A model generated the notes under the pieces. It made no database searches, had not been told where the DNA came from, and saw only the letters and a program-made list of their open reading frames with translations. Of a DNA stretch of 38,385 bases, positions 1,229 through 35,876 are shown in pieces (the first letter of the stretch is position 1; the number at the start of each line of letters is the position of its first letter). The DNA is taken from positions 1-38,385 of IMG/VR virus record IMGVR_UViG_3300024346_000204, one strand, 5' to 3'. The stretch comes from a virus. Made by a program: the position numbers and the translations under genes.

Positions 1229-2560
1229 TTATAGTTCAGCGGAGGCAGTGAAGCCTAAAACGGAGTAAGCGGTGTTTGCGGCGCCAACAATTCCACCAAA
1301 CCTAAAGCCGTCCTTTGATGGCTGAGTTGCTGCCCCGCCGCCAGGGGTTTGAGTGCCCAGAACAATGACTGGAGTCGCCCGCATAGTAACAGGAAATTGA
1401 ATGTCAATAAGCAAATCGGAGGAAGTGGAAGCTGGTGTGTAGGGGCTGAGCGCAGCAATATTCTGGATACTTGAGAAAAAATATCTTTCACACATTGTCA
1501 CTTCAATCTGTAGTGGCCTATGTTCAAACGGTGTAGCGACAGGGCCGGGCTCTACCTGCACTTGGGCAATGTCAAAGGTGCCCGATTGTTGGCCGAGGGT
1601 AGAGGTGCGACTGTTAAAGGTAGAACCAGCGTCAAACCAAATGGCGAGAGTCAACTGATGATCGTTATTAGTCCCAAGGGTTTTGCCGCTGATTGACGGC
1701 ATTGTTGTTGTAACTGTAACTTTCTGCCAACTGGTGCCAATGGAAACCTTGGTGACACCGATAGCCTCAACCGTTGCGCTTGGAGAGCCGCCAGTGCCAA
1801 AACTCTGGACAAGCTCTACAGCAATGCTCCTAGTTGCATTCGCCTTAGCCCAGAAGCTAATGGTTACTTGCTGACCGGCAAAAGTGCGTACGTCTTCAAT
1901 GCGTTGAGCTAAAACGCACTGGTTGCCAGCTCCAGCAACAGAAGTGACAACCGTTTGACAGAAATACGTTGGCTCATTCGGTACTGCCGTTTGCCCAACA
2001 GTGAAAGGCTGTTGCGTTACGGATTGAGTGGTGCCTATGCGCGAATGAATCCACCGATCAGCCCCATAGTCCGCCGCTGTAAAAGGCCCCACCCCGCGTT
2101 GCCAGACATCAAAGTCACCATTAATGATGCGGTTGCGTAGTCCTGCCAGTGGACCGCCGTTGAAACTGGCAGCCCTCATATCGGCACTAAACGTTGCGTT
2201 GCCCGAGGCATCAACCAGCAGCCGCTGCACACCACCCGTTGCGATACCCAGCTGATCCGCGCCGGGGCTATAGATGCCGGTGTTAACGTCGCCGCTGAAG
2301 TAAAGGCCTGGCGCGGCGGCAGTGCCGCCTTCAAGCAGCAGCGTCCCGTCCAGCTCACGCAGCGAAATCCAAGCGTTGTTGGCTGAGTTGCGGATCTTCA
2401 GCAGGCCAGCCGTAGTATCAGCCCAAAGCTGATAGGCGAACGTGGTGCTGGGTTCAGCCGCGCCGCTGTTGATGCTGACGATTGCCGATAGGGCGTTGTT
2501 CAGGTCTTGCCTGAACGCGGCGCCAGACTGGTTGGCAACGTTGTAGTCGTGTTGGGCCAT
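1229..2560 (-). CDS. Tail fibre protein with carbohydrate-binding-like domain (443 aa)
   Basis: The N-terminal ~75 residues (YNVANQSGAAFRQDLNNALSA, then an ExSTTFAYQLWADT motif) are the collar found in many cyanophage fibres. A repeat-like section (GLYFSGDVNTGIYSPGADQLGIATGG) follows. The motif RNRIINGDFDVWQRG at about 142-156 introduces a beta-rich domain with ITISFWAKA-type strands, resembling a carbohydrate-binding module. The start codon overlaps the stop of tail tip J (TGATG). The distal third (about 1240-2000) looks clearly richer in A+T than the collar end and the neighbouring J gene, consistent with exchange of the receptor-binding part. The fibre role is well supported; the ligand is unknown. 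Confidence 0.85.
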   Translation of the reverse strand: MAQHDYNVANQSGAAFRQDLNNALSAIVSINSGAAEPSTTFAYQLWADTTAGLLKIRNSANNAWISLRELDGTLLLEGGTAAAPGLYFSGDVNTGIYSPGADQLGIATGGVQRLLVDASGNATFSADMRAASFNGGPLAGLRNRIINGDFDVWQRGVGPFTAADYGADRWIHSRIGTTQSVTQQPFTVGQTAVPNEPTYFCQTVVTSVAGAGNQCVLAQRIEDVRTFAGQQVTISFWAKANATRSIAVELVQSFGTGGSPSATVEAIGVTKVSIGTSWQKVTVTTTMPSISGKTLGTNNDHQLTLAIWFDAGSTFNSRTSTLGQQSGTFDIAQVQVEPGPVATPFEHRPLQIEVTMCERYFFSSIQNIAALSPYTPASTSSDLLIDIQFPVTMRATPVIVLGTQTPGGGAATQPSKDGFRFGGIVGAANTAYSVLGFTASAEL

Positions 2561-5500
2561 CAGATGATCTCCTTGCCGTAGCCGATTGCTGTGTAGGTGA
2601 ACTGGCGGCTTACGGCAGCGCCGCCGCTGTTCCTAAAGACGACCTGGAAGCCGGTGCGGGTCACGTCGCTGATGGCAAAGTAATCACCAGTCCCCATGTT
2701 AAACGCTGTCAAGCCCATTGCCGGCGCTTGGTAGAACGGCTTGGCAAACGTGGCCACATAGGTCGTCGTGCTGCTGGTCAGAGTAGCGGACTGCTCGATG
2801 CGCTGCTGCAACTCCAGCTCGGCGCCAAGCTCGTCGATGACGATGTTCTGGTTGGGGTCTCCGCTGCTGGCGATCACCTTGAACTGGAAGGCGCGGCCGC
2901 GAATGATTGCATTGCTGAACTCACGCCAGTCGTCCCACACCGGGCTGCCGCCGGGGTTGTCGTTGGTAAAGCGGACGTAGAGCGTGGCGTTGGCGGCGTC
3001 CAGGTTGGTCTCGTCAATTTCAGGCCAGTCATCAATCAGCCCAACCTTGTCATCCCATAGCGCTGCCGGCAGGTAGGGGCGGGTGACAAAGCGCCGGCGC
3101 ATGTTTACGTCGAAGACGGTGCCCATGTCCCAGGTGCTGCCGAACTCGTACTCGCCAGTCAGGTTGACGCCGCCGGTGCTGTCGATGGATGGCAGCGCAT
3201 CCCAGTCGCCAGAGTCTGCTTCGGCCAGGATCGGGTCGCCGTTCTCGTCAAGGATCGGGTCGCCGTTCTCGTCAATTAGCGGGCTGCCTGGCACCACATC
3301 GGGCGCCATGTCGTCCACGTTGTCGCCGGTCGAGATGATCAGGCCGTCCAGCTCACTGCTGTAGAACATGCCGGTGACGTTGCCCGAGAATGGCGGGATC
3401 TCCTGGTCTTCGGCGTAGGTCTTGACCAGCAGTCGCGGTTGAGGCGTGGGCAGGTCGGTCACCGCAGTGGCAGCCACTAGCGAACGGTTGCCCGTGTCAT
3501 CTTCAAACTTCAGCAGGTAGGTGCCTTCCAGTAGCGGCACCTGCTTCTGGGTTTGGCTGCCAGCAGCAGCGGCAACAATCTCCTGACTGTTCTGCCAGGT
3601 AGCTCCAACCATGGCGACGCTGTGGCGGATGAGCACCTTGCCACCAAGCAGCACGTCCAGCTCAGCAGCGCGATCCCAGCTGAGGATGGCGCTGGCCTCG
3701 TCGATTGGCACAAGGTTGATGCCAGCTACGTTGATGGGCGCTGCTGACTTTGCTTGGGCGTAGACGGTCAGCAGTGCCGGCAGCGTGGAGCGCAGGAATG
3801 CAGGGTTGACGCTGTAAACCTGCACCTGGTAGGTGCCCTGTTTGTTGTCGAGAATTTCGTAGTCGGGCTTGGAGATGTTTTCTTCTTGCCAGTTGTTGTT
3901 ACCAAAGCGCCAACGGACGCGGTACTGCGAGATGCCGGCGATCGGCTGCCAGCTGAGGATGATTTTCGACAGCGCCCGGCCGTTGCTTTCATAGAGCACT
4001 TCCTCGTAGCGGAGGTTTGCGGGCGCGTTAGGTGCGACGTTTAGGTTCGTGACATCACGCGGTTGCAGTGCTGCGCCGCGCTCGATGTAGGCGTACTTGC
4101 TGGCGTTGTAGGCCAGTGCGCTGACGGCGTACTGCGCACCATCCTGCTCGGCCACGCTGAGGACGCGCCACTGGCTCGTCTGGATGTCTGTGGTCTGATA
4201 AACCCAGACGCTGTTCACGTTGGGCGTTGCGGTGAATGCCGAGCTGACAGTGATCACCGCGCCGCTGCGGCTGCTAACGGATCGCTCCTGAACGGTGCCA
4301 TCGGGGAGGATCACCGACAGCGTGCCGCCCGATACGGGCAGGCCTGTCGCATCGTCCACCGTGATGGCGGTGGTAGTGGCAGTCACGATCCGGCCGCCGC
4401 GGCGACTACCGGCGCGCATAGGATCAGCCACCTCGATGATCTGCCCAGGGCGCACCACGACGCCGGCATCAATCGAGGCGGTGAAGTTGATTACCTCTGA
4501 CTCGTACTGCTCGGAGTAGAGAAGCCATTCGCCAATCCGGCTGGCCTGGCCGCGAGACGTGCAGGCGAAGGCTGAGATCTGCGTCGTGACAACGCCGTAC
4601 TTGGCAATTGCTGCCTGGTCTTCCACCACCTCGTAGGCGATGTCGGCGCTGGGCAGATCGAGGTAGCTCACCACCGCCACTGTTGGGCGTGTCTTGCGGC
4701 TGCTGCCTTGGTAGCTGAAGCCTTCCTCAGAGACGTTGGCCAGCGTGAACAGGTAGGCCGAATCGGCCGGCCGGTCTTGGCTGATCGTCAGCGTGCCGGT
4801 GCTCCAATACGGCATGACCCGGAGCACTGAGCACATGTCGTTGATGAGCTTGTAGGCCTCTTCAGCGGTCTGGATGTTGGTGTTGCAGGAGAAGCGCGGC
4901 TCAAACCCGCCGAAGCCATTGGGCACCAGCTCGGCGGCATACTGGCTGGCGGCGTAGAACGCCCATTTGTCGAGCTGCGCTGCCTGAATGTGGTCGCCAA
5001 AGCCGTAGCGTTTGGATGTCAGCAAGTCCCACAGTACCCATGCCGGGTCTGAGCACCACTGCGCTGCCCCGAAGGTGCCATTCCAGATGCCGCTGTAGAT
5101 CAGCCGACCGTTGGCCTGATCAACCGTCGCATTGGACGGGATCTGCACCTTGATGCCGCGGATCAGATAGGTGCGGCTTGGGACGCTGGAGAACTGCTCG
5201 GCATCCACCCGCAAACCGATCAGCGCGCTGTTGGGGTAGCGCAGCTTCGCGTAGACGATCTCGGTGTAGCTGGTCCAGTTGAAGGCGTTGGCTAGCTTGG
5301 CGCTGGCACTGTCGGGCGTGACGCGCGTCACGCGGATGTCTGCCGGGGTGGTGGCCAGCCCCACCAGATAGTCGCGCTGATAGGAATCGGCGGTGCGGCC
5401 AGCGATCGTGTCATCGATCACGGTGGTGTAACCGCCGCCGCCGTACTGCACGGCGATCTGCAGGCGCACGTCGGTGCCGTTGATGTCGCCTTCGTCAGTG

Positions 5501-6351
5501 AACAGCTGCAGCTGCGGCACCGTGATCGTGATCCGCGCCGCGTCAACGTTGGCGTCATTGATCGTGCGCACAATCGGCGTGGCCTGCTGCACCTGCACGC
5601 CCACAGGCCTCTCATCCTCAATACCAGGCGACCCGGGGATGTAGGACTGGTTCTGCGTGCCGTTGCGCGTGTAGACGGTGACGTTCTGAAAGTTGTAAGT
5701 GCCGTTCGCGTTTTGCAACGGCGTGTTGTCGAGGAAGATCGACTTGTCGCCCTCTTTGAGGCCTTCAATCTCGCCTTCGCTAATCAGGTCCAGAACCTGC
5801 GCATATTGCGCGCTGTTGAGGTTGTCAGCTGCTTCTGTTGGCGTGCGCGTTGAACCACCGCCGCCCTTGCTTTTCTTCTTGCCGCCGCCAGCGCCTGCAA
5901 TCGGACCAAGGCCGAGGCCGGCGTTGTGGACGCGGATCCCGCCAGCGATGAAGGTGTGATGCCCCTCGACGGTCAGGTTGTAGACCGTGCCGACGCACAG
6001 CTCCTCGCTGCTGACGATCGGCCGCAGGTGGCCGTTCTCATCCACCAGGCAGTCATCTGGCCCGAGGGTGCCGATTTCAACGAACGCATTGAACTGGTTG
6101 AGCACCCAGTGATTAGGCGTGGCATCCAGCACCGCGCCACCCCAGAGGCGGTAGCGGTTGACCCGCTCGCCGGCGTGGACGTGAACCTTCAGCACCTTGG
6201 CCGGGTGGATCCCGCCTTGATCGTCAAAGCTCAGAACTAGGTCGCTGGGCTGCAGCTCATCAATGCGCCGCTGCCCATCAGGCACCCGGACCAGCGTGTG
6301 CCCGAGGAAGCACCCGCCGCCGCCGCCGCCAGAGCCGACAATCCTGCTCAT
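2560..6351 (-). CDS. J: Tail tip attachment protein J with N-terminal Hint (intein-like) domain
   Basis: This 1263-aa protein forms the central tail tip that contacts the host. Residues from about 168 onward follow lambda gpJ closely: TPTEAADNLNS, the LISEGEIEGL motif, SSYTEI-type strands, PNSALIGLRVDAEQF, PNGFGGFEPRFSCN and AFACTSRGQASRIG are all recognisable. Two fibronectin-III-like domains follow at about 772-860 and 869-950, then a DENGDPIL tandem repeat near 1020-1042 and a beta-rich C-terminus. Inserted before the J core is a Hint domain from Cys14 to Asn143, flanked by Gly-rich linkers. Its TPNH motif is at 78-81 and it ends VYNLTVEGHHTF...VHN followed by Ala144. The start overlaps the gpI stop (ATGA). 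Confidence 0.95.
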   Translation of the reverse strand: MSRIVGSGGGGGGCFLGHTLVRVPDGQRRIDELQPSDLVLSFDDQGGIHPAKVLKVHVHAGERVNRYRLWGGAVLDATPNHWVLNQFNAFVEIGTLGPDDCLVDENGHLRPIVSSEELCVGTVYNLTVEGHHTFIAGGIRVHNAGLGLGPIAGAGGGKKKSKGGGGSTRTPTEAADNLNSAQYAQVLDLISEGEIEGLKEGDKSIFLDNTPLQNANGTYNFQNVTVYTRNGTQNQSYIPGSPGIEDERPVGVQVQQATPIVRTINDANVDAARITITVPQLQLFTDEGDINGTDVRLQIAVQYGGGGYTTVIDDTIAGRTADSYQRDYLVGLATTPADIRVTRVTPDSASAKLANAFNWTSYTEIVYAKLRYPNSALIGLRVDAEQFSSVPSRTYLIRGIKVQIPSNATVDQANGRLIYSGIWNGTFGAAQWCSDPAWVLWDLLTSKRYGFGDHIQAAQLDKWAFYAASQYAAELVPNGFGGFEPRFSCNTNIQTAEEAYKLINDMCSVLRVMPYWSTGTLTISQDRPADSAYLFTLANVSEEGFSYQGSSRKTRPTVAVVSYLDLPSADIAYEVVEDQAAIAKYGVVTTQISAFACTSRGQASRIGEWLLYSEQYESEVINFTASIDAGVVVRPGQIIEVADPMRAGSRRGGRIVTATTTAITVDDATGLPVSGGTLSVILPDGTVQERSVSSRSGAVITVSSAFTATPNVNSVWVYQTTDIQTSQWRVLSVAEQDGAQYAVSALAYNASKYAYIERGAALQPRDVTNLNVAPNAPANLRYEEVLYESNGRALSKIILSWQPIAGISQYRVRWRFGNNNWQEENISKPDYEILDNKQGTYQVQVYSVNPAFLRSTLPALLTVYAQAKSAAPINVAGINLVPIDEASAILSWDRAAELDVLLGGKVLIRHSVAMVGATWQNSQEIVAAAAGSQTQKQVPLLEGTYLLKFEDDTGNRSLVAATAVTDLPTPQPRLLVKTYAEDQEIPPFSGNVTGMFYSSELDGLIISTGDNVDDMAPDVVPGSPLIDENGDPILDENGDPILAEADSGDWDALPSIDSTGGVNLTGEYEFGSTWDMGTVFDVNMRRRFVTRPYLPAALWDDKVGLIDDWPEIDETNLDAANATLYVRFTNDNPGGSPVWDDWREFSNAIIRGRAFQFKVIASSGDPNQNIVIDELGAELELQQRIEQSATLTSSTTTYVATFAKPFYQAPAMGLTAFNMGTGDYFAISDVTRTGFQVVFRNSGGAAVSRQFTYTAIGYGKEII
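3225..3285 (-). repeat. 24-bp tandem repeat coding DENGDPIL twice in gpJ
   Basis: A 24-base unit, read on the plus strand as aggatcgggtcgccgttc plus tcgtca, occurs twice in tandem, and a third partial copy (PLIDENGDPIL) precedes it in the protein. The encoded D-E-N-G-D-P units resemble short calcium-loop-like turns. Whether they bind a metal is not known. Confidence 0.8.
5923..6312 (-). other. Hint / bacterial intein-like domain inside gpJ (residues 14-143)
   Basis: The domain spans 130 residues, beginning at Cys14 directly after a run of six glycines and ending with His142-Asn143. A CFLGHTLV-type block A, the block-B signature T-P-N-H (78-81) and a terminal block VYNLTVEGHHTFIAGGIRVHN are all present. 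No homing endonuclease insert fits in this length. The residue after Asn143 is Ala rather than Cys, Ser or Thr, as in bacterial intein-like (BIL) domains, so classical splicing is unlikely while autocleavage at either end remains possible. Domain identity is strong; activity is inferred. Confidence 0.85.
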
Positions 6352-6920
6352 GCCGCCACCTGCACGGTATCAATGCCGGCGGAGATCACCACCGAGCCGA
6401 CCAGCGTCTCGCCGTAGACCAACGGCACCGGTGTGCCTTGTCGGCTGGTTTGCTGGATGCCACTAAAGGAATAGGACTTGCGCGGGTCCTGGTCGGTGTT
6501 GGACGCTGCGCCTTGCGGCATTTTCGGCACCGGAGTGAGCAGCTGCGCGACGCCGCCGAGCACCAGGGAGGCGCCGACGCCGACAAGGATCTGCACGCCT
6601 AGGGCGCCGATGCCCGGCACAAGAAACCCAATAGCAATCAACGCCACCCCAGCAATGATCCGTCCCACCGCGCCAGCGCCAGCCAGCACGGGCACGATCT
6701 TGATCTGCTGCTGTCCTGCCGGGTCGTGCAGCTCATCCTCACTTAGGTCATAGCCGCCGACGCTAACCCGGTAGTGCTGGTCAGCCATGTGCTTCTCCAG
6801 CTGCGGGAAGTTGGTCGCCAAAAACCGCACCGCCTCGGCCGCGTTTGCCACATCGGCGCGGAACACGCGGCGCCCGAGGAACTTCGCCAGCCGACCATAA
6901 ACCCGGATCTCTCGCAGCAT
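6348..6920 (-). CDS. I: Tail assembly protein I (gpI-like, 190 aa)
   Basis: The protein begins MLREIRVYGRLAKFLGRR and has an N-terminal ubiquitin-like section (to about 85) typical of lambda gpI. It is followed by a Gly/Ala-rich hydrophobic stretch (about 88-130) and the C-terminal block QGTPVPLVYGETLVGSVVISAG, which is the hallmark of this family. I chose ATG 6920 because the upstream codons overlap the gpK stop region and do not match the family. It starts 8 bases after gpK and overlaps J by four bases. In lambda, gpI acts in tip assembly with K, L and J. Confidence 0.9.
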   Translation of the reverse strand: MLREIRVYGRLAKFLGRRVFRADVANAAEAVRFLATNFPQLEKHMADQHYRVSVGGYDLSEDELHDPAGQQQIKIVPVLAGAGAVGRIIAGVALIAIGFLVPGIGALGVQILVGVGASLVLGGVAQLLTPVPKMPQGAASNTDQDPRKSYSFSGIQQTSRQGTPVPLVYGETLVGSVVISAGIDTVQVAA

Positions 6921-6928
6921 GGTCCTGC

Positions 6929-7648
6929 TCAGCCTCCACCCATCGTAATGAACGCAGGATGCCGCAACCGCCGGCCGGTGCACTTCTGAAGCCAGCCGCC
7001 GTACATATCCCGGCTGCTCAGCCGCCCGCGGATGTGATGAAGCACCAAGCCGTCGCCAATGTAGACGCCGACATGGTTCAGGCCTGGCCCGCTGATGCTC
7101 ATCAACAGAAAGTCGCCATGCTGGAGCTGCTCATTCTCGTTTAGCTCGCGAAAGCCAGCTTCTTTCCAGCAGCCTTCAAACATAGGGGCATCTTCAAATT
7201 CTTCGGGTGATACAGGCCGCTGCCAGTCACGCAGCTGCAGCCCATGCTCGGCGTACCAGTCGCGCGTCAGCGTCCAGCAGTCGGTGACGCCCCATGCCCA
7301 CTCGCGGCCGATCAGCGGCGCCTTGTAGCCCGATGGCTTGCAGCCGCCCCATGCTTCGGTCTTCGGGTTGACAATGTGCCACTCCAGCCCGCTGTTCTCG
7401 CACCCGACCAGATCCGGCCCGCTGGGCTGTGGCGCTGTGACTGGATGGCTGTGCACCACCGCAATGATCTCGCCGGCATCCTCGGCGGCCGCGTAGTCGT
7501 CCGGGTCGAGGATGAACTGATCAATGCCGGTGCACAGGTTGCGGCACGGCCAGTAACGCTCGCGGCCTTTGACCACCACAACCAGGCCACAGGCTTCGCG
7601 CGGATCATCGGCTTTTGCGTGCTCAAGTGCTGCGGTGCGCCAGGTCAT
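6929..7648 (-). CDS. K: Tail assembly peptidase K (JAMM + NlpC/P60, 239 aa)
   Basis: Two enzyme domains are visible. The JAMM metalloprotease part has E18, the H66-S-H68 motif and downstream S76-x-x-D79, a complete set of expected ligands. The NlpC/P60 cysteine peptidase part has C124 in GVTDCWTL, H192 in NHVGVYIGD and a later His pair (204-205). This arrangement equals lambda gpK, which helps build the tail tip and may cut peptidoglycan at entry. The start overlaps the end of gpL by four bases. Confidence 0.93.
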
Positions 7649-8325
7649 ACGACGAACGTGCCCACGCCTGGGAAGGAGCCAAACGGCAGATCAGCCGTGG
7701 CGCCAAAATGCGCCTTGCAGTCGTCCAGGGTCTTTGTGCAAGTCGGCAGCCCGCCGGCGTAGCTGCACTCCGTCGATTTGTAGACCCACTGACAGATGTT
7801 GGCGATGCACTGCCGCTTCGGCGCCCTGACGCCGGCCAGGTCAAACGCAGCCGCCAGCTCAAACTCCACCACGTCGCGGGTCTCAACGGTCTTGCGATCA
7901 ACGTAGTAGATCTCGCGCGGAAACTCAGCTGTCGGGTCCGGTGTGCCGTAGGGGTTGACGCTGCCGGGGAAGTTCACCGCGTCGATGTAGCGCGCAAGGG
8001 TGCGGATGCGCGTCACTTTGGCGCCATCCAATCCGTCTGGCAGGCTCAGCAGCAGCCCTGTGATGCTGCTGAGGATGTTGCTCACGCGGATCTTGGGCCG
8101 CGGCAGCTGACCGTTGCCGGTGTATTCAAAACCTTCCGCCTCAACGGGGAAGCGCTGATAGCTGTTACCGGCCCACACCATTTCGCCGTTGGAGTTGAGG
8201 TTGGTGCCGGAATGAAATCGGTAGGTGTCGTTGACGCCGTGCTGCGTGGCATTCAGCTCCAGCACAAACAGCTCGATGACGGCGCTGGGTGCAATCGCCT
8301 GAAGATCAGAGACGGGAACGCTCAC
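7645..8325 (-). CDS. L: Minor tail protein L (Fe-S cluster candidate, 226 aa)
   Basis: Sequence and order match lambda gpL, a tail-tip ring protein. The C-terminal quarter has five cysteines (C173, C178, C187, C196, C203) spaced as in the family region where lambda gpL holds a [4Fe-4S] cluster. Which four bind iron cannot be decided by eye. The N-terminal section has the family motif [10 protein letters not shown] near residue 16. It overlaps both M (8322) and K (7648) by four bases, so translation of the block M-L-K is coupled. Confidence 0.9.
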
Positions 8326-33743: not shown

Positions 33744-34826
33744 TGGATAGCAGACACAAAGGTGCCCGGATTAGGCATTTTGAGGCTCCCGAGCGGGGTC
33801 GAGACTTGGTATCTGCGCTACCGGGAGCCCGGTGGAAAACAGCAACACCACAAGATCGGCCGGCTGCCGATCGTCAGCAGGACGCTGGCACGGGAGGAAG
33901 CGCACAAGCTGCTGGCCTCTGTCGCCAAGGGTGAGGCGCCCACCAGCGTGCGGCAGGAAGTGCGCCGCGGGCCATCGGTGGCGGACCTCTACGCCAGGCT
34001 CCAGGCGGAGCACTACGGCAAGCTGCGCACATCCACCCGCGCGGGCTACCGGAGCATCTGGGAGGCGCACATCATCCCCGATCTGGGCGGCCACAAGGTG
34101 CAGCAGGTCACCACCGCGCAGGTGATGAAGCTGATCCGATCGGTAGGTGGCACCCAGGCCAACCGTACGCTGGCGGTGCTGCGCAAGTCGATGAACTTGG
34201 CAATCCTGTGGGGGCTGCGGAAAGACAACCCCTGCGCCAAGGTGCCGGGCAATGGCGAGCGCAAGCGGCGCCGGTATCTCACCCGCGAGGAGATGGCGCG
34301 GCTGCTGGTGGCGCTGGACGGGTTTGCACCGGCCGGTGTTCGCTGGCGGTTTGCCCAGCTGATGCGCCTGCTGCTGCTCACCGGCTGCCGCGTCTCAGAG
34401 ATGAAGGACGCGCGCTGGAGCTGGTTGCAGGGTGCGGTGCTGGTGGTGCCGCATGAATGCCACAAGACGGGGGTCGATGGCCACCCCCGCCTGATCCACC
34501 TTACCCCCGTAGCGGTGGAGGTGCTCCAGCAGCTGCGCGCACAATCGAACAGCGAATGGATCATCCAAGGCGATGGCGACCACCCGCTGGTGGGCTACCA
34601 GAAGCTCTGGCAGGAGCTGCTGGCCACTGCGGGGATTGCGGACTTGCTGGTGCATGATTTGCGGCACCACTACGCCAGCATGGCGGTGAGCGCCGGGCTG
34701 ACGCTGAACCAGATCGGCGGACTGCTTGGCCATGCCAGCCCGCTTACCACCGCCCGCTACGCCCACCTAGTCGATGAGGCCGCAGCTGCTGCCGCGTCCA
34801 AGGTGATCATCCCCGGCTGGCAGTGA
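33732..34826 (+). CDS. int: Tyrosine integrase (364 aa)
   Basis: Catalytic residues are complete: R220 (TGCRVSEM), K245 (HKTG), H308 and R311 (HDLRHHYAS), H334 (LLGHASPLTT) and Y343 (ARYAHL). An N-terminal DUF4102-like part (residues 10-65, RLPSGVETWYLRYREPGGKQ) is followed by a SAM-like core-binding domain (about 80-165). It inserts phage DNA into a host tRNA gene through the attP found just upstream. Its 3' end overlaps the convergent dcd gene by 20 bases. The start ATG lies within the repeat TGCGCGAATGGTGCGCGAA. Confidence 0.96.
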   Translation: MVREWIADTKVPGLGILRLPSGVETWYLRYREPGGKQQHHKIGRLPIVSRTLAREEAHKLLASVAKGEAPTSVRQEVRRGPSVADLYARLQAEHYGKLRTSTRAGYRSIWEAHIIPDLGGHKVQQVTTAQVMKLIRSVGGTQANRTLAVLRKSMNLAILWGLRKDNPCAKVPGNGERKRRRYLTREEMARLLVALDGFAPAGVRWRFAQLMRLLLLTGCRVSEMKDARWSWLQGAVLVVPHECHKTGVDGHPRLIHLTPVAVEVLQQLRAQSNSEWIIQGDGDHPLVGYQKLWQELLATAGIADLLVHDLRHHYASMAVSAGLTLNQIGGLLGHASPLTTARYAHLVDEAAAAAASKVIIPGWQ

Positions 34827-35322
34827 CGCTCAGGTCGCCGTTGTACCTTCCAGTCTCGCGGTAGGTGCGCTCAGGCTCGCCGGCGATGACGTGAAACACC
34901 ATCTGGCCGATCTTCATGCCAGGCCATAGCGCGATGTTGTGGAAGCGGCGGCTGTTGTGCAGCTCCAGCGTCAGCCGGCTGCCATGCCACCCTGGATCGC
35001 AATAGCCGGCCAGCAGGTGCTCCAGCCCTTCACGGGCACGGCTCGACTTGAGCACGAACTGCGCCGCGATGTGGTCGGGCAGGTTGAAGATCTCCTGCGT
35101 CTCCGCCAGGCAGAACTCACCCGGCGTCATCCAGTAAGGGTCGGCCTGCGTGTGGTGACCGATGCCGAGGATCTGCAGCTCGGGGCGCTCGGGCACCTCA
35201 ATCATCAGCCGATCGCCCAGCAGCACATCGAGGCTGGCCGGGTTCTGTAGGTCGCTGTTGTACGGCACCACCATCGCCGCCTGGCGACAGAGGCGGGCGA
35301 TCTCATGGTCGGGGATGATCAT
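34807..35322 (-). CDS. dcd: dCTP deaminase (171 aa)
   Basis: The fold motifs are ASLDVLLGDRL (29-39), PGEFCLAET (67-75), KSSRAREGL (92-100), YCDPGWHG (107-114) and LTLELHNS (117-124). S93, R97 and E120 line up with S111, R115 and E138 of the E. coli enzyme by spacing, which supports deamination of dCTP to dUTP; a bifunctional deaminase-dUTPase activity cannot be excluded. It supplies dTMP precursors for phage DNA. It is the last gene of the late-side minus operon and overlaps the HNH stop by ATGA. Confidence 0.92.
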   Translation of the reverse strand: MIIPDHEIARLCRQAAMVVPYNSDLQNPASLDVLLGDRLMIEVPERPELQILGIGHHTQADPYWMTPGEFCLAETQEIFNLPDHIAAQFVLKSSRAREGLEHLLAGYCDPGWHGSRLTLELHNSRRFHNIALWPGMKIGQMVFHVIAGEPERTYRETGRYNGDLSVTASRG

Positions 35323-35876
35323 GCAGGCTTGTCATTGTGGAGTTTGGTAAGCCTATCCGCAAGGGACCGACGCCTCTGCGTGCTTCGGGCTCGTCGCCCA
35401 AACTCGAACGAATAGTCAACATTCTGCTGAGGTGTCACAACTTCCAAGTTGGGGAGCAAGTTATTTGAACGATTGCAGTCAAGATGATTGATGTGCATCC
35501 CCTCTGGTATTGGCTCACAAAAAGCCTCGTACACCATGCGATGAACTTGCTTTTTCACAAAATGACGCAAGCCCTTCTTTCCGTTGCTTTGCTTTACTGG
35601 CAGCTCTAAACCGTAGTCAGCAGGATTTGAGACGCTAAAAGCGACCCTACGATAGCCGTCTTGGTCGACTTCCCCGCACAGTATGGCCTCTGGGTAGTGC
35701 GTGACACTGATGACATCCCTAGCGAGCCGTTTCACTTTTCCGGTGTTGCTGACCTGATACAGCCCTTCGTATCCAGGCACGTCGCGCCATTCCTCTTGCA
35801 CACGGCTCTCTGCTTCTACCGTTGAGTTTACCCGATCACGGCTCTGCCACAATCGCCCAGCCTGTCTTTGGTCCAT
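35319..35876 (-). CDS. NUMOD4-HNH homing endonuclease (185 aa)
   Basis: The sequence begins with a NUMOD4 element (EEWRDVPGYEGLYQVSNTGKVKRLARDV, about 28-55) and has an HNH_3-type core (KKQVHRMVYEAFCEPIPEGMHINHLDCNRSNNLLPNLEVVTPQQN). The DNA is visibly richer in A+T than its neighbours, a sign of a mobile gene. The frame overlaps the endolysin end by 41 bases from ATG 35876; a GTG start at 35801 is an alternative. It stands between the endolysin and dcd without breaking either, as a free-standing homing gene. Confidence 0.9.
   Translation of the reverse strand: MDQRQAGRLWQSRDRVNSTVEAESRVQEEWRDVPGYEGLYQVSNTGKVKRLARDVISVTHYPEAILCGEVDQDGYRRVAFSVSNPADYGLELPVKQSNGKKGLRHFVKKQVHRMVYEAFCEPIPEGMHINHLDCNRSNNLLPNLEVVTPQQNVDYSFEFGRRARSTQRRRSLADRLTKLHNDKPA

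Follow-up and report, generated by a model that had tools for sequence, protein, structure and literature searches.

Protein autoprocessing is well known from inteins, Hedgehog proteins and bacterial toxins. Among the closest described systems, the products of bacterial intein-like (BIL) domains, which lack a +1 nucleophile, are predominantly cleaved ones according to a review (PMC7664689, which cites Aranko et al. 2013), and a further review states that an alternative route also lets A-type BIL domains splice without such a nucleophile (PMC5874633, citing Dassa et al. 2004). Phage inteins have been described in terminase, ribonucleotide reductase, helicase and dCTP deaminase (phiCbK, PMC3556154; CL131, PMC6293099), and splicing has been shown for the dCTP deaminase intein of CL131, which carries an HNH domain (PMC6293099). 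In phage lambda, the tail tip protein gpJ is packed with gpI and gpL at the end of the tube, and the passages searched of the corresponding structural papers contain neither a Hint domain nor N-terminal processing of gpJ (PMC10721106, PMC11101478). The phage tail tip is a machine with a tightly controlled assembly order, and no Hint, intein or BIL domain linked to J or to a tail tip was found in the open-licence PMC literature (subscription papers and preprints lie outside this scope), in keeping with an initial annotation, made from the DNA alone, which knew of no described use of autoprocessing in tail assembly. Here, a virus DNA stretch of 38,385 nucleotides (positions 1-38,385 of IMG/VR record IMGVR_UViG_3300024346_000204, hereafter the window), a siphophage record that encodes an integrase and a tail module of the lambda type, was analysed. 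Its J homologue carries a Hint domain in the Gly-rich leader, and we consider it moderately probable that this is a BIL-type (A-type-like) cassette which removes itself after translation.

From the N to the C terminus, the J homologue consists of residues 1-13 (MSRIVGSGGGGGG), a 130-residue Hint domain, the stretch AGLGLGPIAGAGGGKKKSKGGGG and a normal J core. The translation thus agrees with the initial annotation, which had set the domain between two Gly-rich stretches ahead of the core, and Cys14, TPNH at 78-81, VHN at 141-143 and Ala144 all lie where it had placed them. The features of the gene are as follows.

2560-6351, minus strand: precursor of the J (tail tip / central fibre) homologue, 1263 residues, ATG start, matched by PHROG_31 and lambda_TipJ.
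6313-6351, minus strand: N-flank ("N-extein"), residues 1-13, in whose translation the J leader motif I-x-G-[AS]-G-G stands for the first time.
5923-6312, minus strand: Hint domain, residues 14-143, 130 residues without an endonuclease insert, from the AlphaFold2 (AF2) model, Foldseek, VIA and profile matches.
6310-6312, minus strand: Cys14, block A nucleophile, Cys in 101 of 101 distinct copies.
6109-6120, minus strand: TPNH (78-81), the block B TxxH, with T78 and H81 invariant in 101 of 101 copies.
5950-5982, minus strand: block F, YNLTVEGHHTF (124-134), with His132 invariant in 101 of 101 copies.
5923-5928, minus strand: His142-Asn143 of block G (VHN, 141-143), the predicted site of Asn cyclisation, in 101 of 101 and 30 of 30 copies.
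5911-5922, minus strand: AGLG, +1 to +4 (144-147), the predicted new N terminus of J after C-terminal cleavage, in 101 of 101 and 26 of 30 copies.
5872-5901, minus strand: the leader motif again, as IAGAGGGKKK (151-160), its second copy being seen in 47 of 47 AGLG representatives.
2560-5871, minus strand: ordinary J core (HDII / FNIII etc.), with PHROG_31 aligned to residues 161-967.

Residues 14-143 are a Hint domain, as had been read from motifs, and the search against Hint and intein models and the structure prediction that were proposed as checks both bear this out. Profile evidence is weak for the lone window sequence and clear for the family and the predicted structure: the Hint, Intein_splicing and PT-HINT models of Pfam give genuine single-sequence matches that fall short of the gathering cut-offs, the match to TIGR01443 (intein_Cterm) lies over its cut-off (26.2 versus 15.6 bits), and all 33 aligned relatives match PT-HINT (PF07591; best 1.4e-12), Intein_splicing and Hint. 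With a distant-Hint profile, which itself includes two J-borne Hints, J scored 78 bits, compared with 2.3 bits for the best of 1000 shuffles of the N terminus. The AF2 model has a mean predicted local distance difference test (pLDDT) value of 82.7, with the Hint part mostly at ~90 or more, and was matched by VIA to the NpuDnaB intein (4o1r) with a Z score of 22.0 and 1.4 Å over 132 residues, and by Foldseek to BIL2 (6y75) at 5.6e-11; among the PDB matches listed for the model, all are Hint-fold domains. The best PDB profile match of the Hint family is the BIL domain of C. thermocellum (2lwy, 1.5e-9), in line with the BIL-like character that had been proposed. A second Hint domain was sought in the window and none was found.

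The residues expected to carry the chemistry are invariant, Cys14, Thr78, His81, Asn125, His132, His142, Asn143 and AGLG being identical in all 101 distinct copies, and 52 of the 130 Hint positions are invariant, i.e. the constraint reaches past the active site. Thirty further distinct copies were collected with a search pattern that demanded Cys1 and left the His-Asn positions open; His-Asn is present in all 30 and AGLG in 26. The +1 residue is Ala or Gly, and never Cys, Ser or Thr, in the resulting 131 distinct copies, and the +1 Ala noted in the initial annotation is invariant in the window's lineage. Between deep pairs, fourfold sites of the Hint are 0.34-0.44 identical versus ~0.38 expected (saturated), while the Hint protein is 76-78% identical versus 40-60% for the J core. 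Because the protein has been kept while silent sites became saturated, long-term purifying selection is indicated and the domain is not a decaying remnant; the comparisons indicate long maintenance of an active Hint protein, under tighter constraint than the J that hosts it.

The Hint lies in a low-complexity Gly leader, and two architectures of its flanks were distinguished. In the AGLG architecture, the leader motif [IL]xG[AS]GG is found on both sides of the Hint in 47 of 47 representatives, which share less than 90% Hint identity; the script flagged three of them, in all of which the second copy is readable (two were read by eye). The N- and C-terminal leader copies covary (18.38 versus 16.27 ± 0.38, 0 of 10000 shuffles, which ignore phylogeny), with pairs such as IQGAST/IQGAST, ISGSKG/IQGSKG and IAGSTG/VAGATG; in L065, IQGASTGGG stands on both sides of the Hint and the repeated motif copies differ silently only, and the first (N-flank) motif is kept across lineages with third-base variation. 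Where GGGG follows the Hint (L258, L259/L287 and L297, L304; two lineages), a second leader is present in none of four representatives. In this GGGG architecture the Hint breaks a Gly run, and rejoined flanks would restore the leader of Hint-less relatives, while a spliced J of the AGLG architecture would keep both leaders. As a separate observation, the leader before the Hint of L073 reads ...WWWWRG directly ahead of C, a frameshift in the run of Gly codons that may be an assembly error or slippage.

For the self-removal that we favour, Gly13-Cys14 would first rearrange to a thioester, after which His142-Asn143 would cyclise and free Ala144. In the AGLG architecture both ends would be cut and the first leader released together with the Hint, leaving a complete J which starts AGLGLG-IxGAGGG... 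and whose leader would be equivalent to that of Hint-less J proteins; since a further leader copy follows the cut, cleavage alone would suffice. The Gly+1 architecture is rarer and has a single leader, which must be kept, so the flanks are expected to be ligated there: the Gly thioester would be attacked by the amine of the freed Gly, joining the flanks by BIL-type splicing that uses no nucleophilic side chain. A reactive N-terminal junction is probable as well, since Cys14 and the TxxH of block B vary as little as His-Asn, and both junctions are expected to react because reviews report cleavage by BIL domains and splicing by the alternative route in A-type BILs. The window Hint likely cleaves and does not splice, as the initial annotation had it, although splicing is also within reach of BIL domains that have Ala at +1. 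A reading in two designs would explain the pairing of +1 identity with leader duplication, which pure cleavage or pure splicing alone does not. Removal of the Hint would be expected before or during tail-tip assembly.

Several observations count against this reading. Block F has Asn125 where inteins usually have Asp, and the N-flank leader copy is conserved too, which is odd if it is merely discarded. Some Hint-less J relatives (L135-L146, ~50% core identity) have a wholly different, Gly-poor N terminus (MPSAAEITLAMNLKGS...), so the leader is not universally needed. The ligation part is supported by four representatives from two lineages. Use of an internal start in place of the Hint-bearing one was considered separately and rejected as a general substitute: 54 of 87 genes have no in-frame ATG, GTG or TTG in the first 30 codons behind the Hint.

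The cassette is gained, lost and exchanged. Two J proteins with 88% core identity differ by its clean absence, one reading MSRIVGAGGGGGG, Hint, AGLGLG-IAGAGGGGGGK and the other, Hint-less, beginning MSRIVGAGGGGGGGKGGGG. In a scan with the J core only, ~19 loci with the Hint and ~39 with a Gly-rich leader but no Hint were counted by hand, and the J-core tree requires nine state changes most parsimoniously, at least four of them forced by well-supported branches. In L247 and L248 the Hint proteins are 98% identical and the J cores 57% identical, and DNA identity is ~94% in the cassette versus ~55% on both sides, with the switch at or just outside the Gly-codon runs. Such comparisons indicate that the Hint cassette has moved between distant J genes, and an endonuclease is not needed to explain this because recombination in the Gly-codon repeats can do it. 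The duplicated leader, the clean-absence relatives, the recombinational exchange and the second architecture (+1 Gly, single leader) all go beyond the initial annotation. Two HNH endonucleases were seen at other positions: a free-standing, homing-type enzyme with a NUMOD4 motif in the window (35319-35876, minus strand, 29 kb from J) and an open reading frame (ORF) in L266 (18225-18530, plus strand), ~1.4 kb downstream of a J of the Gly+1 type in a prophage-like region.

The patchy presence on the J-core tree and the exchange between L247 and L248 would also be accounted for by a selfish, endonuclease-less cassette without a role of its own, which spreads by recombination in the Gly-codon repeats and persists since J must shed it. 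The lack of a partner gene specific to Hint-bearing loci, sought by clustering flanking ORFs, fits this explanation, to which we would give somewhat less than an even chance: the Hint protein is far more conserved than the host J, and beyond the active site, and the silent sites point to a mostly old association.

Splicing in all cases, with the Hint excised and the flanks ligated by aminolysis as in A-type BILs with +1 Ala, would give a mature window J of MSRIVGSGGGGGG-AGLGLGPIAGAGGG... and would make use of the invariant catalytic residues at both junctions, of the selection on the N-flank leader and of the reported splicing of A-type BILs without a +1 nucleophile (PMC5874633); the Gly+1 forms without a second leader need ligation in any event. 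However, the second leader of every AGLG form would then be superfluous and BIL products are reported as predominantly cleaved (PMC7664689), and splicing throughout is regarded as unlikely. C-terminal cleavage only, the version of the initial annotation, in which Asn143 cyclises and leader and Hint are released as one pro-piece, agrees with the +1 Ala and with the leader copy behind the cleavage site; the Hint identity and BIL-like character of that picture stand, but it leaves unused Cys14 and TxxH, which are needed for N-terminal chemistry and are as invariant as His-Asn, and we judge it unlikely. Retention of an inactive structural appendage on the mature tail tip, consistent with the presence of a folded domain and with nothing further, is highly improbable given the invariant catalytic set despite saturated silent change and the flank design.

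Returning to self-removal, a bulk of 130 residues at the N terminus of J might hinder assembly, because lambda J is packed with gpI and gpL. More speculatively, and on balance rather unlikely, tail-tip morphogenesis would include a dedicated autoprocessing step, with J made as a pro-protein and its N-terminal Hint having to fire before the tip is assembled or while it forms; an evolutionary change from splicing to pro-peptide cleavage would then be recorded in the two designs, one that ligates (Gly+1, single leader) and one that only cleaves (AGLG, duplicated leader). A Hint tree rooted with PT-HINT and a cyanobacterial Hint had long branches, and no direction of change was readable from it. 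The activation of the tip that had also been suggested found no specific support. The pairing of +1 Ala with a duplicated leader and of +1 Gly with a single one amounts to a natural experiment on where ligation is needed and where cleavage is enough, and a 130-residue Hint with a native +1 Ala or Gly could be a useful tag for traceless cleavage.

The assignment of the host protein is firm, with J matching PHROG_31 'central tail fiber J' (E = 1.5e-254, profile search), NCBIfam lambda_TipJ NF049904 (2.9e-144) and Pfam FNIII-A_GpJ (1.7e-37). The neighbouring genes of the tail module are as follows.

6348-6983, minus strand: gpI homologue, PHROG_32 tail assembly (6.1e-52), with a 4-base overlap with the start of J.
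6929-7648, minus strand: gpK homologue, JAB and NlpC/P60 domains both present by domain matches.
7645-8325, minus strand: gpL homologue, Phage_tail_L (4.8e-50).

A scan of IMG/VR with J residues 1-159 returned 450 related stretches, and a broader query 502; the proposed survey of J homologues thus found the same insert in hundreds of contigs (~450-500) from uncultured aquatic phages, and in all 131 distinct copies read the Hint is at the J N terminus, directly after the Gly-rich leader. J homologues occur in 1515 INPHARED records of cultured phages, and a tblastn search of 50,697 cultured-phage records yielded other Hints and inteins (e.g. in helicases), none of the matches listed being, by annotation, in a J gene. 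In the GTDB genome set, one contig with a Hint-bearing J was found, binned in a cyanobacterial metagenome-assembled genome (MAG), and two more J genes, whose Hint is more distant (44% identical), occur in genomes of the same class, one within an 8.2-Mb contig. The nearest relatives of the window TerL are those of Synechococcus phages S-CBS3/1 (48%), and a dCTP deaminase-like gene (34807-35322, minus strand) has a counterpart reported in cyanosiphophages (PMC6293099); a tRNA was sought in the window as a host clue and none was found. The host is probably cyanobacterial, a tentative and circumstantial assignment because it depends on the single GTDB contig, with TerL, the J genes from the same class and the dCTP deaminase as the other clues.

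Compared with known systems, the J Hint shares with the A-type BIL of C. thermocellum (2lwy) the Hint fold, Cys1, TxxH, His-Asn, the absence of an endonuclease and a +1 residue other than Cys, Ser or Thr. However, A-type BILs are located in variable, non-conserved regions of bacterial proteins, whereas the J Hint occupies a fixed N-terminal site in hundreds of phages, with a duplicated leader; it is classed as A-type-like, and not as a plain A-type BIL, because this site is at the front of a conserved virion protein. The Hint domains of PT-HINT pretoxins are similar in sequence (33 of 33 members match PF07591), and a non-nucleophilic +1 residue is common among them, but they precede C-terminal toxin tips, while the J Hint is N-terminal and followed by the structural J core. 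On a phage record, L225 (Ruminococcus phage NatCom_3870), three PT-HINT-like proteins lie within 5 kb (ORFs near 1, 1576 and 3236), two with nearly identical Hint and different C-terminal tips, which looks like a polymorphic toxin locus. In L261, L262 and L264 (cyanobacterial class set), a hydrophobic N-terminal stretch precedes a Hint, which two of these proteins carry between a Gly run and KGG(S/G)G, a similar layout in an unrelated protein. The Hedgehog Hog domain lacks a C-terminal His-Asn and continues, behind the Hint, into a sterol-recognition region, whereas the J Hint has His-Asn and the J core behind it. Class 1 (mini-)inteins such as gp41-1 and NpuDnaB share the fold (VIA Z 20-22), the Cys1 and His-Asn junctions and the existence of empty alleles; the J Hint differs in lacking a +1 Cys, Ser or Thr, in having Asn for the block-F Asp, in lying outside an enzyme active site and in that J of the AGLG architecture does not require a ligated product. 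Unlike homing inteins, it has 130 residues and no endonuclease inside. The inteins of phage enzymes are likewise phage-borne Hints, but interrupt enzymes and are expected to splice; in the tape measure of L265 (Gordonia phage BearBQ), intein N- and C-terminal blocks ~1 kb apart probably mark an intein in a structural gene. With the lambda gpJ tail tip, as described in passages of PMC10721106 and PMC11101478, the locus shares the J core and the gene order L-K-I-J. The fold of the J Hint is of a known kind; what is new is the protein that hosts it and the design of its flanks, which comes in two versions.
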